DNA from: Halorientalis regularis
Lineage (GTDB): Archaea; Halobacteriota; Halobacteria; Halobacteriales; Haloarculaceae
Direction of reading: 5' to 3'
DNA length: 64,000 bases
Assembly: GCF_023698535.1 (NCBI RefSeq)
Contig: NZ_JALJCL010000002.1
Span: 248,001-312,000 of the forward strand
The notes under the pieces are model-generated. The model was not told the origin of the DNA and did no database searches. It saw nothing but the letters and a program-made list of their open reading frames with translations. Below, one piece after another: positions 19,860 through 29,639 of this stretch. Both the position numbers and the translations under genes were made by a program. Every line of letters starts with the position of its first letter. The stretch's first letter is position 1.

Positions 19860-19867
<8 letters not shown>

Positions 19868-22340
19868 CCCAGCCGTCGAGGCTCGACGTGGTCCGCTCGA
19901 CGGCCCCCGTCAGGTGGTCGGTGTCGATGTGTGCGTCGGCCCGCATCGCCGTTCGCGCGGCGTTCTCCGCGACGAGTTCGAGGTCGCTGGCCGCGTACTC
20001 CTCGGTCCGCTCGACGACCGTCGACCAGTCGAGGTCGTCGGCCAGCGGCCGGTCCCGGAGGTGGACAGCGAGAATCTCGCGGCGCGCCTCGGCGTCCGGC
20101 GGCGGCACCTCGACGCGCTCGTCGAACCGGCCCGACCGCCGGATCGCGCCGTCGATATCTTCGAGCAGGTTGGTCGCGCCGACGACGACCACGTCCTCGC
20201 CCACATCTTCCAGTTCGGCGAGCAACTGGTTGACCATCTGCTGTTCGCTGGTGTTCATCCCGCCGGTTCGGTTGCCCGCGATGGCGTCGATCTCGTCGAT
20301 GAAGAGGACACAGGGGGCGTTGGCCGCGGCGATGGCGAACAGGTCCGCGACGTTCTGTGCCGGCTTGCCCATCCACTTGCTCGTGAGGTCCGCCGGCGTC
20401 ACGTCGAGGAAACTGTGGCCGAGTTCGCCGGCCAGTGCGGTCGCCATGTACGTCTTCCCACAACCCGGCGGCCCGTGGAGCAGGAGTCCGTTCAGCACGT
20501 CCAGCCCGTAGTCCTCGAACCGGTCGGGGTCGTCGAGCGGGTCGATCACCGTCTCTTCGAGGCGGGCCTTCAGGTCGGCCATGCCGCCCACGTCGTCGAA
20601 GTCGATGCCGGGATCGGGGTCGACCAGCGAGCGGGCGTTCAGATCCGCGCTGTCGGGCTGTTCGACGTGATCCTCGGCGTCGGTCGGTCCGCTCCAGTCC
20701 GGGATCGAGGAGTCGAGTTCCTCGGCGGCCGCGAGCAGGTGTGACTCGTCGATCTCCTCGCCGGCGCGCAGCGCTTTCCGGGCGGCGTTCTCCGCGATCA
20801 GTTCCAGGTCGCTGGCCGCGTAGCCCGCCGTCGCCGCGACGACGCCCTCCAGGTCGATTGCCTCGGCCGTCGGACGGCCCGCAAGGTGAACTTCGACGAT
20901 CTCGCGGCGGGCGTCGGTGTCCGGCGGCGGCACTTCGACGCGCTCGTCGAACCGGCCCGACCGCCGGATCGCACCGTCCACGTCGTCGACGAGGTTGGTC
21001 GCGCCCATCACGACCACGTCGTCCTCGCTGGCGTCCTCCAGTTCGGTCAGCAACTGGTTGACCATCTGCTGTTCGCTGGAGTTCATGTTCGCGTCGCCGT
21101 CGCGCGTCCCCGCGATGGCGTCGATCTCGTCGATGAAGAGCAGGCAGGGCTGGTTGGCGCGAGCGATCTCGAACAGCTCTTTGACCTTCTGGGCGGGTTC
21201 GCCCATGTACTTGCTCGTCAGGTCGGCGGGGCCGATCTCGACGAAGTCGTGACCCACCTCGCCCGCCAGCGCTTCCGCGATGTAGGTCTTCCCACAGCCC
21301 GGCGGGCCGTGCAGGAGGACGCCGTTGACGACGCCGATGCCGTACTCCTCGAAGGCCGCGGGGTCTTCGAGCGGGCGGATCACCTTGTGCCGGAGCGTCT
21401 CCTTGAGGTCGTCCATCCCACCCACGTCGCCGAAGCCGCGTTCGACCTGCTTCGTGACCAGCGACCCGGCGTCCATCTCGACGCCGTCGGGCTGAACGAC
21501 CTCGTCCTCGCCGGCCGTATCCTCGCCGCCGAACGACCGGTCGGGCGAGCGATCCGTGGTGCCGCTGGCACCGCGTTCGTCGCGTCCGGCCCGCCCCTCG
21601 TCGTCCGAGAGCTGTTTCTGGACCCGGTCCAGCGAGAGGTCGTAGCCGTACTCGGCCAGTCGGGTCGGGTCGTCGGCGATGAACTCGGAGAGCCAGCCGT
21701 GGCGCTTGAACTCCGCCTCCGTGGCGTCGGGGTCGCGGAAGGCGAGCATGATCGAGTGATCGCCCGTCTCGCCGCGGTACTCCGCCAGCCAAAAGGGAAG
21801 GTACACGCGCGTGACTTCGGTCACCTCGTCGAACCCGGCGGGATCGAACTCGCCGGGGAGGCCGTAGTTCTCGCGGAGTTTCCGGAGGAACACGTCGGCC
21901 TGATCGCCCCGGCCGGCGTCGCGCTGGCGCGCCCAGTCCGCGACCCGCTCGGGGATGAGGTCGCCGGCGGTGTCGTTGTCCACCTGAAACTGGAGCAACA
22001 CGGCGGGACCGAGGCCGGGGCCCTCACCGAAGTCGTAATCGCCGGTCGCGACGTTCAGCAACGTCCCGGCGTCCTCGGCGTACCGGGAGACGTGGGCGTC
22101 GTTGTCCGCCCACAGGCCGTCGAGGAAGACGGTGTCTTCGCGTTGCTCGCTCCCGAACCACTGGCCCTCGTCGGACTCGTACCGGACAGTGACCCGGAAC
22201 ACGGGATAGAACACGCGGTGGAGGCGTTCGAGGCGTTCGTCCTCGTCGAACGGCGTGAGCGTCCGGTCGTCCAGCACGTCCCGCACCTTGTCGGCGTCGG
22301 GGAGCCGGTGGTCCACGTAGATGTACGGCGGCAGCGACAT
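19860..22340 (-). CDS. tandem AAA+ ATPase with unrecognised N-terminal domain
   Basis: 826 residues. N-domain (1-235) of no family I recognise, acidic linker (236-300), D1 with Walker A GPPGCGKT (K351), Walker B LLFIDEID, and SRH arginines (RRSGRFDE), D2 with Walker A K629, Walker B and SRH also intact. Pore-loop residues are SKYMG and SKWMG, closer to Vps4/katanin than to Cdc48. Both ATPase sites look active. Start ATG 22340 overlaps the phosphopantothenate synthetase stop (TGATG), so translation is coupled; a GTG one codon earlier is less likely. The substrate is unknown. Confidence 0.9.
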
Positions 22341-23086
22341 CACAGATCACCGCTTCGGATAGCGTCCTCGGCCGCCGACAGCGCCGCCTCGCGGTCGAAC
22401 TCCTCGGTGATCCGCTCGAGTTCCTCGCGGGATGCGTCGGTGAGGGCCCTGGCGTGTTCGGTGATGCCCGGCACCGCGCGGATGATGTTGTCGACGATGG
22501 GGACCGTCGCGGTCTGGGCCGACCGGGAGAGCGGGTTCAGGTCGATCACGAGTTCGGTCTTGCCCATCGCCGCGAGTGCTTCGGCGCGGTCGCCGTCTTC
22601 GAGGGGGACCAGCACCACGTCGGCGTCGCCGATGCCGTCGGCGTCGACCTTCGCGCGCTCGTGGTCGAGACCCGGAATCCGACCGTCGGCGTCGAGGCCC
22701 TTCACCTCCTCGGCCCCGTGCTCGCGGAGGTGGTCGGCGATGCGTTCCATGCGTTCGGCGGTGCGGTTGAACAGGTTGACCTCCAGATCCGCGCCGGTCG
22801 CGGCCGCCAGTTCGACCAGTTCGCCGGGCACGAGGGCGGCGGCGTTGCCGTTGACCGAGAGGACCGGATGGTCGGCGCGCAGGAGGTGGGCGGCGGCGGC
22901 GCGCTCGGCCCGGTCGGCGCTCTCGGTGGTGCGTTCCCCGAGCAGGTAGTCGTAGGCCTCACCCCGGCCCTGTGCGATCAGTCCCTGCCGAGAGGTGATC
23001 CCCAGATCGACCCCGTGTTCGATCCGGTGTCGCGTCAGCAGCGACTCGTAGCGGGGGTGGCTCTCCGGCACGTCGATCTCGTCCAT
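22340..23086 (-). CDS. 4-phosphopantoate--beta-alanine ligase
   Basis: 248 residues. It joins 4-phosphopantoate and beta-alanine to give 4'-phosphopantothenate, the archaeal replacement for PanC plus CoaA order. Family features: SHPRYESLLTRHRIEHG at the N-terminus, HPVLSVNGNAAALVPGELV, and MGKTELVIDLNPLSRSAQ, as in the DUF137/PPS proteins. Pantoate kinase, the step before it, is encoded 3 kb upstream on the same strand with the repeat protein between. A gattttt TATA-like box about 29 bp before its ATG suggests its own promoter. Confidence 0.95.
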   Translation of the reverse strand: MDEIDVPESHPRYESLLTRHRIEHGVDLGITSRQGLIAQGRGEAYDYLLGERTTESADRAERAAAAHLLRADHPVLSVNGNAAALVPGELVELAAATGADLEVNLFNRTAERMERIADHLREHGAEEVKGLDADGRIPGLDHERAKVDADGIGDADVVLVPLEDGDRAEALAAMGKTELVIDLNPLSRSAQTATVPIVDNIIRAVPGITEHARALTDASREELERITEEFDREAALSAAEDAIRSGDL

Positions 23087-23165: not shown

Positions 23166-26057
23166 TCAGGCCTGGGTCTCGGTGGCGGCGTCGGGCCCGA
23201 ACTCCCGGAGCCCGCCCAGTGCCTCCCGGGCCTCACGGCGGGTCGGGTAGGTCCGCTTGCTCTCGGCGACGGTACTCCCGTCGGTGTCGACGAGTCGCCA
23301 GCGCCAGCCGTCCTCCCCATCATCCTCGTGGAGTTCGAAGGCCGGCGACCCGATCTCCAGCAGGCTCGCCGTCGTCAACACGTCCCGGACCGACGCGAGC
23401 GCGCGCTCGGCCCCACTCCGGGACTCGAACGTCGGACCGCTGATACCGACGGTGTTGCCAGCGGTGTCGACGAATCGCCAGATCCAGCCGTCCTGGCGTT
23501 CGGTGACCTCGAAGGCTGCCAGATCGAAATCCAGCAGGCCCGCGCCGCCAGCGAGTTCGCGGGCCCGCGAGAGGTCCACCCGCGCGCTCTCGCGGCTCTC
23601 GTGAGTCCGAGCCCCCACGGCCAGCGTGTTCCGGTCGGGATCGACCAGCCGCCAGCGCCACCTCTCGGTCCCGCTGTCCTCGTCGGTGACCGTTTCGAGT
23701 CGAAACGCGGCGGGGTCGACCGCGAAGACGCTCGCGCCACCGGCGTTGTCCCGGACGAGTCGTGCGGTCGTCGCCACCGCGTCCCGGGACGGGAACTGTT
23801 CGGTGCCGACCGCCAGGGGCTCGCGCTCGCGGTCGACGATCTCCCACTCCCAGGCCTCGCCCTCCTCGCCCTCGATGACCGAAAAGCGGATCGCGATGTC
23901 TTCGACGGTGTGGACGGCCGCGTCGGCGGCGAAGTCGGCGACCGACTCGGCGGCCTCGGTGGCGCTCTCCCGGTCGGTGAAGCCGCCGAGACTCCGGGCG
24001 ATGGTGCTGCCGTCGGGGTGGATCAACCGCCAGCACCACTGCCGGCGCTCGCCCTCGCCGACGTACACCTGAAACAGAGCGGCGTCCATCTGCCGGGTCT
24101 CGGCCTCGGGGGCCAGCAGTGAGAGCGCGTCCATCGCTTCGCGGGCTGTCTCGTCGCTGTCGTAGCGGCCGGGACTGGTCGCCAGCGTGTCCCCGCTGGC
24201 GTCGACCAGTCGCCAGTGCCACTCGGATTCGGCCTCGTACAGCTCCAGCGCGGCGCTGCCGATCTCCACCAGATCGGCCTCTGGCGCGTGCTGTTTCATC
24301 GTGTTCATGGCCGCCGCGGCATCCTCGCGGGAGGCGTGTTCCTGCCCGCTGTCGGAGACGACGCTCCCGTCGGCGTCGACCAGCCGCCAGTTCCAGCCGC
24401 CCTCGTCGGCCTCGTAGAGGTGGAACGCGGCGCTATCGAACTCGATCCGGTCGGCGGTCTCGATCTCCTCGCGCAACTGCTCGACGGCCGCCGCCGCCGC
24501 CTCGGGGTCCGCGAAGGTCGCGCTGGCCGGACTGCGCGCGACGGTCTCGCGGTCCTCGGTGACCAGTCGCCAGGCCCACTGGTCGCCCTCGGGGTAGATC
24601 TCGTACTCGGCATCGTCGAGTTCGACGACCGGCGCGTCCGCGACGACCTCCTTGACGCGGCCGACGACCGAGCGACCGCTCTCCTCGGAGGGCACTGCAC
24701 CCTCACTGCGGGCGACGACCGCGTCGTCTGCGTCGACCAGCCGCCACCGCCAGCCGCCCTCGTCGCCCTCGACGACCTCGTAGGCAGGCGAGCCGGATTC
24801 GAGGAACGGCATGTCGATGGCCCCCTCCATGATCCGCCGGACGGACCCCTCGACCGCCTCCCGACTGTCGAACTCGTCGCTGGACTGGGCGATGGTCTCG
24901 TCGTCGGCGTCGAGCAGCTCCCAGCGCCAGGTGCCATCGGCCTCGATCAGCTCGACGCCCACCTGTTCGACGTCCATCACCGGCGACTCGCGGGCGGCCT
25001 CCCGGATCGACCGAACGGAGGCCTCGGCGTCGTCGCGGTCCTCGTAGGCCTGTGGGCCGTCGCCGAGGACGCCCCGGTTCTCGTCGACCAGCCGCCAGCG
25101 CCAGTCCGAGCCATCGCCGTAGACCTCGAAGGCCCCGTCCTCCACGTCGAGCAGGGAGGCGCCGGGGCCGTGTTCTTTCAGCAGGTTCACGGCGCTCTCG
25201 GCTTTCTCGCGGTCGGCGTAGCGGCCGTCGCTGTCGGCCAGCACGACGCCGTCCTCGTCGACGAGCGTCCAGCGGGCCGTCGACTCGCCGTCCTCCCCCG
25301 CCTCGCGGTACAGCCGGAAGGCGGCGTGGTTGATCTCCAGCAGACTCGCGCCAGCCACTTTCGCCTTGATCTCCTCCAGCGCCGCCTCGGCGTCGGTCTG
25401 GCTGTCGTAGGCTCGGGTCCCGTCGGCGACGGCCGCTTGCTCGACGAACCACCAGTGCCAGCCCGACTCACCAGGGAAGACCGCGAACACGCCGTCGCGG
25501 TCGGCCTCGCCGACCAGCACGTCCGAGACGCGTGCTTCCGTCTCGTCTTCGACGACCCACCCCATCGCGGCCGCGTCCTCGTCGGCCAGGAGGTAGCTCC
25601 GTCGTCCGGTCACCACGGGCACCAGTGCGGCGACCAGCGCCAGGAGTGCCAATCCGCTGCCGTAGCCGGCGAGGAAGAGTTGCCCCTGGGTCTTCCCGAC
25701 CCCCCACTGCCCCGGATAGATCTGCAGGAAGTACCCGACCGCGGCGACGGAGACGAGCGCACCCAGCACCGCCACCGGGACCGCCCGCCTGCGGAGGGGC
25801 AACTGGAGGACGGTCCCGAGCAGGAACACGGGGAATCCGGCCGCGGCGAGTATGAGCGTGAGTTCCGTGAGCGCCGCAGGCGAGAGGCCGAGTAGACCCG
25901 TGCGACCGGCCGCGAACACCCCCGCAGCGGCGAGTATCGCCACCAGCCCGAGCACCAGTATCCAGTAGCCGTACACCTCCGGTTTCGTCTGCGCTTCCCC
26001 CATGTACTCGTCGTAGAATCCGTAGAAAGCGCTGTCCGGTTGCGATCCCGTTGCCAT
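23166..26057 (-). CDS. membrane protein with 13 tandem DUF1508/YegP-like repeats
   Basis: 963 residues. The N-terminal part has four hydrophobic spans (about 30-51, 62-85, 92-113, 127-150). From about residue 189 to the end there are 13 successive units of 58-64 residues, each a strand-strand-helix pattern with a core like WRWRLVDADG and then SREDAEAAV-type helix. This matches the DUF1508 (YegP/HVO_2922) fold. Function is unknown; small DUF1508 proteins are usually one or two units. Start MATGSQPDSA is chosen; a TTTAA box lies about 35 bp upstream. Gaps to the flanking CoA genes are both 79 bp. Confidence 0.85.
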   Translation of the reverse strand: MATGSQPDSAFYGFYDEYMGEAQTKPEVYGYWILVLGLVAILAAAGVFAAGRTGLLGLSPAALTELTLILAAAGFPVFLLGTVLQLPLRRRAVPVAVLGALVSVAAVGYFLQIYPGQWGVGKTQGQLFLAGYGSGLALLALVAALVPVVTGRRSYLLADEDAAAMGWVVEDETEARVSDVLVGEADRDGVFAVFPGESGWHWWFVEQAAVADGTRAYDSQTDAEAALEEIKAKVAGASLLEINHAAFRLYREAGEDGESTARWTLVDEDGVVLADSDGRYADREKAESAVNLLKEHGPGASLLDVEDGAFEVYGDGSDWRWRLVDENRGVLGDGPQAYEDRDDAEASVRSIREAARESPVMDVEQVGVELIEADGTWRWELLDADDETIAQSSDEFDSREAVEGSVRRIMEGAIDMPFLESGSPAYEVVEGDEGGWRWRLVDADDAVVARSEGAVPSEESGRSVVGRVKEVVADAPVVELDDAEYEIYPEGDQWAWRLVTEDRETVARSPASATFADPEAAAAAVEQLREEIETADRIEFDSAAFHLYEADEGGWNWRLVDADGSVVSDSGQEHASREDAAAAMNTMKQHAPEADLVEIGSAALELYEAESEWHWRLVDASGDTLATSPGRYDSDETAREAMDALSLLAPEAETRQMDAALFQVYVGEGERRQWCWRLIHPDGSTIARSLGGFTDRESATEAAESVADFAADAAVHTVEDIAIRFSVIEGEEGEAWEWEIVDREREPLAVGTEQFPSRDAVATTARLVRDNAGGASVFAVDPAAFRLETVTDEDSGTERWRWRLVDPDRNTLAVGARTHESRESARVDLSRARELAGGAGLLDFDLAAFEVTERQDGWIWRFVDTAGNTVGISGPTFESRSGAERALASVRDVLTTASLLEIGSPAFELHEDDGEDGWRWRLVDTDGSTVAESKRTYPTRREAREALGGLREFGPDAATETQA

Positions 26058-26136: not shown

Positions 26137-26964
26137 CTAATCGAGCAACTGCGCGCCCGTCGGGTCGATCCGGCAGATCGAGGGGTCGTAGCCGGCCGCC
26201 GAGAGCCCGCCGTCGATGGAGAACACGGTTTTGCCGAGCATCGCCATCGACGCGTCGCCGCCGGCCTCGTTCACGTCCAGGATTACGTCCCGAACGTCGG
26301 GGGTGAGCAGTTCCGCCTCGCGGGCGAACTGCCGGGACGCACGCATGAACGACGAGAGCGTGGGCTCCTCGACGACCCGGGAGAGGCCTCGCTTGCCGGC
26401 CTGATCCAGCAGGTCGGTGTCGCCGGAGATGACTTCCGCCGTCGAGAGTTCGCCCAGGGTGTGGTACTCGACGGGCCCGCGTGCCGGAATGGCGTCCAGC
26501 AGATTGTCCTGTGGGCCGCCGGGTTCCAGCCGGATCGGGACGCCGCCACGGGCCTGGGCCACCACGTCGCCGAGGCCCGTCCCGGCCTGGACTTCCGCGC
26601 CGTGGGCGATGGTGACGAGTTCGTTCTCGGAGAGTCGGCGGTCGAACACGTCGTTGACCGCCAGCGCGGTGCCCAGCGCCATCGCGCCGGAGACGCCGAA
26701 TCCCGAGCCGATGGGGAGGGGGGTCTGGCCGTCGACCCGAGCGGTCGCCTGCAGGGTGTCGAGGACCGTCTCGACGGCGTCCATCTCGACCGGCACGTCG
26801 TTACAGCGCACGCTCGTCTCCTCGGCCGGCCGGACGGTGACGGTCACGCCGTCGGTCAGGGTCAGCCCCGCGCCCTGGGAGCCCGCTTTCGTCGGATCGT
26901 CGTCCCGGTGAATGGTGAAAAAGCCGGTCACGTGGCCCGGGACGAACGCTTCGGCTTCGGTCAT
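26137..26964 (-). CDS. pantoate kinase (GHMP family)
   Basis: 275 residues. It phosphorylates pantoate to 4-phosphopantoate in the archaeal CoA pathway. The GHMP ATP-binding loop is PIGSGFGVSGAMALGTALA (about 84-102), the N-terminus AFVPGHVTGFFTIHR and GTGLGDVVAQARGG are typical of the archaeal PoK group, and the C-terminal GKTVFSI strand is present. Start ATG 26964 has a TTTTATTC box about 28 bp upstream (near 26986-26993). The promoter is divergent with the hydrolase gene. Confidence 0.93.
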   Translation of the reverse strand: MTEAEAFVPGHVTGFFTIHRDDDPTKAGSQGAGLTLTDGVTVTVRPAEETSVRCNDVPVEMDAVETVLDTLQATARVDGQTPLPIGSGFGVSGAMALGTALAVNDVFDRRLSENELVTIAHGAEVQAGTGLGDVVAQARGGVPIRLEPGGPQDNLLDAIPARGPVEYHTLGELSTAEVISGDTDLLDQAGKRGLSRVVEEPTLSSFMRASRQFAREAELLTPDVRDVILDVNEAGGDASMAMLGKTVFSIDGGLSAAGYDPSICRIDPTGAQLLD

Positions 26965-28800: not shown

Positions 28801-29103
28801 ATGCCGACGATCAGCGCGCGGCTGTCGGAGGACGAGCAGGCGGAACTGGAGCGAGTCGCGGAGCTACTGGACGACGACCGAAGTACGACGATCAGGAAGG
28901 CCCTCGAAGAGGGGCTGTCGGAGTTGCGGATTCGCGAGGCGGTCGGGCGCTACCAGCAGGGTGACGTGGCCGTCACCGAGGCGTCCCGGATCGCCGGCCT
29001 CTCGGTCGCGGAGTGGCTGGAAGTCGCCCGGGAGCGCAACCTCACTACCCAGTTGAGCGCAGCCGACCTCCGGCGGGATGCCGACGACGCGAGGGAGCTG
29101 TGA
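28801..29103 (+). CDS. UPF0175 family antitoxin
   Basis: 100 residues. An N-terminal ribbon-helix-helix-like part (1-45, MPTISARLSEDEQAELERVA) and the characteristic UPF0175 C-terminal section (EASRIAGLSVAEWLEVARER) are present. The family is regularly paired with PIN-domain proteins of the DUF3368 type, as here. Its stop overlaps the next start (GTGA). A TATA-like region gtagtatta lies about 20-27 bp before the ATG. Confidence 0.92.
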   Translation: MPTISARLSEDEQAELERVAELLDDDRSTTIRKALEEGLSELRIREAVGRYQQGDVAVTEASRIAGLSVAEWLEVARERNLTTQLSAADLRRDADDAREL

Positions 29104-29639
29104 GCCGTATCTACGTCGACGCGACCGTGTTGACCGCCCTGGGAGCGGTCGGCGAACTCGACCTGCTCGGTGCCTTCGACGGCACTATCGCCGTCCCGGA
29201 CGCCGTTCGGGCGGAAGTGACGACAGAGCCGGCTCGCACGAACCTCGACCGGTTCGTCGACGACAACGATATCGTGACCGGCCCGGTCGAAACCGACTGG
29301 TCCGACGACGCCATACGCGTACTGGACGCCGCCGAGACGACGAGCGACGTGCGCGTGGTCGAAGGCATCCTCGACGCGACGGACGGAGCAGAAACGGCGA
29401 GCGGAGACGGAGCTGCGGCTCCGACCGTCGGCCTGCTCTCCGACGACCGGCTGCTTCGGACCGTCGCTGAAGGATTCGGCGCGACCGTGACCGGGACGTT
29501 CGGCGTCGTCGTCCGGGCGGCAGTCTCGGACAAGTACTTCTCCCAGTCACAGGCCAAACGCGTCGTCCGCCGGATCGACAGCCACGGCCTCCACCTGACC
29601 GGCGAGTTGCGCGAACAGGCCGTCGGAGAAGCGGAGTAA
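29100..29639 (+). CDS. PIN-domain toxin, DUF3368-like
   Basis: 179 residues from the GTG at 29100, which overlaps the antitoxin stop by 4 bp. Features: first acidic residue in YVDATVLTALGAVGELDLL (D5 by this start), VPDAVRAEV with a glutamate, and the second acidic pair in VGLLSDDRLLRTVA. An Ala/Gly/Asp/Glu-rich insert (about 85-107) precedes the third motif. The C-terminus (SQSQAKRVVRRIDSHGLHL) is like DUF3368. It is a likely ribonuclease; activity not shown. The start is GTG rather than the internal codons because of the coupling. Confidence 0.85.
   Translation: MSRIYVDATVLTALGAVGELDLLGAFDGTIAVPDAVRAEVTTEPARTNLDRFVDDNDIVTGPVETDWSDDAIRVLDAAETTSDVRVVEGILDATDGAETASGDGAAAPTVGLLSDDRLLRTVAEGFGATVTGTFGVVVRAAVSDKYFSQSQAKRVVRRIDSHGLHLTGELREQAVGEAE

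Follow-up and report, generated by a model that had tools for sequence, protein, structure and literature searches.

A reading frame in the 64,000-nucleotide stretch of Halorientalis regularis DNA analysed here (the window) encodes a membrane protein in which a DUF7139 domain is followed by 13 tandem DUF1508/YegP-like units. This array protein is real, ancient and conserved, its domains are known to Pfam, and it is uncharacterised in the literature searched. The reading that we favour, with a probability of roughly 0.5, is that it serves as a membrane-tethered cytoplasmic scaffold, with the array as an arm of fixed length and a specialised central unit, unit 7, as the main contact. The coordinates originally given for the reading frame were exact, and the strand, which had been left unspecified, is the minus strand (Table 1).

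Table 1. Positions of the array gene, its parts, its neighbours and related DUF7139 genes. Positions refer to the window unless a locus is named.
Feature	Residues	Position	Strand	Basis or remark
Reading frame, DUF7139 membrane domain then 13 DUF1508 units	963 aa + stop	23166..26057	-	
DUF7139 (PF23600), four predicted transmembrane helices	13-154	25596..26021	-	Pfam + AlphaFold
Linker, low confidence, membrane domain to unit 1	~149-186	25500..25613	-	AlphaFold
13-unit DUF1508/YegP-like array	187-963	23169..25499	-	Unit profile + AlphaFold
Unit starts	191, 246, 309, 368, 425, 485, 544, 603, 662, 731, 797, 848, 906			Profile
Unit 7, array centre	~544-602	24252..24428	-	
Pantoate kinase-like GHMP kinase, upstream neighbour, CoA synthesis		26137..26964	-	
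4-Phosphopantoate--beta-alanine ligase (PPS_PS), downstream neighbour, CoA synthesis		22340..23086	-	
DUF7139/volactin gene pair, own genome		L129:8011-8922 and L129:6873-7865	both -	Pair also in L130
Five-unit sister family, examples		L131:5840-7375; L133:7905-9482; L139:6268-7773; others		

The protein belongs to the DUF1508/HVO_2922 family and to DUF7139. DUF1508 (PF07411) was matched with an E-value of 1.8e-80 and 265.1 bits (curated cut-off 22), the NCBIfam HVO_2922 family (NF041908) with an E-value of 9.1e-81 and 265.8 bits (cut-off 90), and DUF7139 with an E-value of 1.7e-22 and 80.1 bits (curated cut-off 30). Eleven stretches individually pass the Pfam DUF1508 model and 11 were found with NF041908, while a unit profile that was built in this analysis and refined on orthologues detects all 13 units at 40-71 bits each. 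The number of units, their length of about 60 residues and the extent of the array, about 775 residues, had thus been read correctly in the original prediction, and the observation of 13 units is far beyond chance. The same is true for the membrane anchor, which Pfam assigns to DUF7139 and for which AlphaFold predicts four transmembrane helices. Not part of that prediction were the assignment to DUF7139, the constancy of the unit number, the specialisation of the central unit and the CoA genes next to the array.

In the AlphaFold2 model of the full protein (alignment of 43 rows; pLDDT 82.8, pTM 0.56), transmembrane helices are predicted at residues 25-52, 60-84, 92-113 and 124-150, and are followed by 13 beta-beta-beta-alpha units that run to residue 963. 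With so low a pTM, this model does not settle the overall shape of the full array. When modelled alone, units 6-9 gave a confident prediction (pLDDT 90.4, pTM 0.81), and neighbouring units are therefore predicted to adopt a fixed pose. Foldseek comparisons of the predicted models with 2k8e, 2k49, 6q2z and 3bid, all with a probability of 1.00, indicate a YegP-like unit fold. Single units aligned with HVO_2922 at a TM-score of 0.72 and with NMB1088 at 0.70-0.73. The full chains of YegP (2k8e) and SO3888 (2k49), UPF0339 proteins of 116-118 residues that have two units by length and no membrane domain, were also matched with a probability of 1.00, but at TM-scores of 0.41-0.42 and an rmsd of 14. 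If the model is right, the array would use the same unit in a different inter-unit arrangement, and a YegP-like pairing of neighbouring units is not supported by it. As for a closed ring of 13 units, propeller-like Foldseek matches had a low probability.

HVO_2922, which shares both the unit fold and the sequence family with the array, consists of 60 residues, has one unit and lacks a membrane domain; its structure (6q2z) was reportedly determined by Kubatova and colleagues and published in ChemBioChem in 2020. With its 13 units and four transmembrane helices, the window protein falls outside the small soluble UPF0339/YegP type, which has one or two units. As for its topology, loop 2 of the membrane domain carries on average 2.6 Lys and Arg and no Asp or Glu residues, as compared to 0 and 0.8 Lys and Arg in loops 1 and 3. 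This favours an orientation with both termini in the cytoplasm, and the Cys-rich, zinc-ribbon-like tails of other DUF7139 proteins would also suit the cytoplasmic side.

The number of units is fixed. Among 61 orthologues, i.e. the window protein and 60 named loci with full or partial arrays, the refined unit profile finds exactly 13 units in 56, although these proteins are as little as 34% (and up to 93%) identical to the window protein. The five exceptions are one array that ends at a contig end (L109), three reading frames that are in two pieces (L119, L122 and L124), and a divergent second copy in Halopiger goleimassiliensis with 12 units and one weak unit (L116). In addition, each unit has kept its place. 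When 12 distant representatives were compared, identity was 44% for units in equivalent positions, as opposed to 29% for units in different positions and 30% for those within one protein. Pairwise best matches alone indicated the right position for only 62 of 143 units, and we therefore used position profiles trained on 50 proteins from outside Halorientalis. These assigned 60 of 78 Halorientalis units correctly, where 6 would be expected by chance. Units that hold their position across genera imply that the array is ancient and has escaped homogenisation, and that the duplications are older than the spread of these genera. A recent expansion can thus be ruled out, in line with the ancient and maintained array that had been proposed.

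Conservation is highest in the centre of the array. In a set of 21 non-redundant orthologues (less than 70% identical), the conservation of unit 7 amounts to 67%; units 13 (53%), 6 (52%), 2 (51%) and 8 (50%) come next, and the remaining units are at 35-42%. When scored with a canonical profile built from a sister family with mostly five units (consensus FEvYED.aGewRWRLRHrNGNiiADSGEGYasR), unit 7 ranks first in 19 of the 21 proteins. The window protein is an exception, as its unit 3 slightly outscores unit 7 (51.5 versus 46.6 bits). Most of the 13 units have diverged from the canonical DUF1508 consensus. The best PDB sequence match of the window protein is HVO_2922, which aligns with residues 543-598, that is unit 7 (E=1.2e-6). 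A DUF1508 unit at residues 531-595 also matches the C-terminal part (positions 340-403) of the tryptophan--tRNA ligase model PRK12284 (E=1.1e-8), a sequence similarity suggesting the presence of a DUF1508 domain in some bacterial TrpRS.

Contrary to what the original prediction had implied, the array protein is not an isolated case. Of the 242 near-complete haloarchaeal genomes sampled, 60 (about a quarter), from 28 of 74 genera, have a match to the family profile at a threshold of E≤1e-90. The 60 named loci come from about twenty genera, including Halorientalis, Halosimplex, Halomarina, Natrialba, Natrinema, Natronorubrum, Halopiger, Halovivax, Salinarchaeum and Halorubellus, and the closest orthologues (92-93% identical) are those of Halorientalis persicus and H. 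pallida. Some genomes have a second, more divergent copy. Many others have no array. Among seven congeneric relatives, this applies to G006, in which a search for the array protein gave no match. A phage origin was rejected as phage records give no match, and so was a plasmid-borne trait, for which 5 plasmid records show no more than partial matches. A search of mainly openly accessible literature yielded no paper on DUF7139, none that combines DUF1508 with haloarchaea or deals with a haloarchaeal DUF1508 array, and two that mention DUF1508. The view that such an array is undescribed consequently stands with respect to its function, but not with respect to its domains, as Pfam already models both parts.

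In the window, the array gene is flanked by two genes for CoA synthesis. The upstream GHMP kinase matches the pantoate kinase model with an E-value of 1e-53 but does not reach its curated cut-off, and the downstream gene is a 4-phosphopantoate--beta-alanine ligase (E=9.7e-95, above cut-off). Among the 60 named loci, the kinase is located upstream on the same strand in 43 and the ligase downstream in 43, with both present in 38 and at least one in 48; several of the remaining 12 loci are short contigs. The array lies between both enzymes in 10 of the 16 array genomes among the relatives, adjoins the ligase only in G054, and adjoins the kinase in G048, where no ligase was found.

Further genes were observed in the window. 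An 827-residue protein encoded at 19860-22343 (minus strand), which overlaps the ligase stop codon, has two AAA domains that are CDC48-like but below the CDC48 cut-off, and its first ~300 residues show no Pfam family among the 25 matches listed. At 28801-29639 (plus strand), a CopG-like gene of small size precedes a PIN-like gene, and the two resemble, by eye, a toxin-antitoxin pair. Similar pairs, also identified by eye, adjoin the pantoate kinase in L131, L134 and L135.

DUF7139 is present in 55 of 58 relatives and occurs in four kinds of proteins, namely with a Cys-rich, zinc-ribbon-like tail, beside volactin, with mostly five DUF1508 units, and with 13 units. Proteins of the zinc-ribbon-like kind (~300 residues, L009-L037) were found in nearly all relatives sampled and have the tail YCGNCxHFxYV...PYCxxH..M.DM..CxxW. 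The sister family with mostly five units (3 to 5 found) is common among the relatives and shares the anchor and the unit type with the array protein, but its units are all near the canonical consensus and its genes are located in other genomic places. In view of both families, the notion that DUF1508 proteins are limited to one or two units is not supported. The volactin-neighbour proteins share the PF23600 membrane domain, but have an acidic tail and no DUF1508 units.

In our favoured reading, DUF7139 would anchor the protein in the cytoplasmic membrane such that both termini face the cytoplasm, and the 13 units would together form one arm of fixed length, probably extended. Most units, having drifted from the consensus, may act mainly as spacers and packing elements, each held in position by contacts to the units next to it. 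Unit 7, whose motif has remained canonical in almost all orthologues, would be the principal site of contact, be it for self-association or with a partner. Self-association is considered in view of HVO_2922, a relative with a single unit, which forms homodimers. As to a partner, the gene neighbourhood makes the CoA-synthesis enzymes the first candidates. The scaffold or multivalent binding surface that had been suggested at the outset is plausible.

It is conceivable, though unlikely, that the array protein itself organises or regulates CoA synthesis, by holding pantoate kinase and the ligase at the membrane or by responding to a pathway metabolite. Besides the frequent adjacency described above, this view is supported by the short gaps to the CoA genes in Halorientalis loci (about 60-95 bp) and by the finding that, in most genomes without the array, such as G006, kinase and ligase are direct neighbours. 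However, in 4 of the 16 array genomes (G008, G027, G035 and G045) the array is apart from both enzymes, and in two of these it is next to leuS, with a kinase-ligase pair elsewhere on that replicon. Moreover, aspS is also kept near the array locus, which indicates that the whole region is slow to rearrange. The stable location of the array is compatible with a functional link as well as with simple vertical inheritance. A TTTAAGG motif, read by eye ~31-37 bases before the array start codon, may furthermore be the array gene's own promoter.

We consider it somewhat less likely still that proteins with DUF7139 share the role of membrane partner to an actin-type system, the array being a cytoplasmic arm that contacts this system or the envelope. 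Full-length matches to volactin (PF25216) were obtained in 30 genomes, and in 27 of these a DUF7139 gene is located on the same strand within 2.5 kb of the volactin gene, upstream of it in 26. This makes the encoded protein a candidate membrane partner of volactin; the passages of the volactin paper that were consulted (PMC10869688) contain no mention of a DUF7139 neighbour. In a midpoint-rooted DUF7139 tree, the 13-unit clade (92/96) and the five-unit clade (96/88) are sisters (95/82), and the volactin-neighbour type, represented by two rows, forms the next branch, with the zinc-ribbon type far away. On the other hand, the array proteins and the volactin neighbours fall into distinct clades, and no array gene was found beside volactin in the loci examined. 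Equally doubtful is the idea that the array merely multiplies a stress-related function of small YegP/DUF1508 proteins. HVO_2922 is among the perchlorate-induced genes (PMC12175516), yegP is a multi-stress hub in Escherichia coli (PMC9501238), and yegP homologues come after capK/capS in operons under DNA-damage control (PMC13373217). All this evidence, however, stems from relatives with one or two units, and most units of the array have moved away from the canonical consensus. The fixed-length scaffold remains our preferred reading.

DUF1508/YegP is a widespread, functionally uncharacterised domain. Within the array, the diverged units around a canonical centre provide natural controls for the role of the canonical surface. 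In its most far-reaching form, which we regard as a long shot, the present family would be one of fixed-length scaffolds, with 13 divergent YegP units and a canonical centre, built on a membrane module that also accompanies volactin and serving to organise at the membrane a pathway of the archaeal cell, of which CoA synthesis is the most likely. The gene neighbourhood provides a concrete link to CoA synthesis and the shared membrane module one to volactin, and both can be tested.
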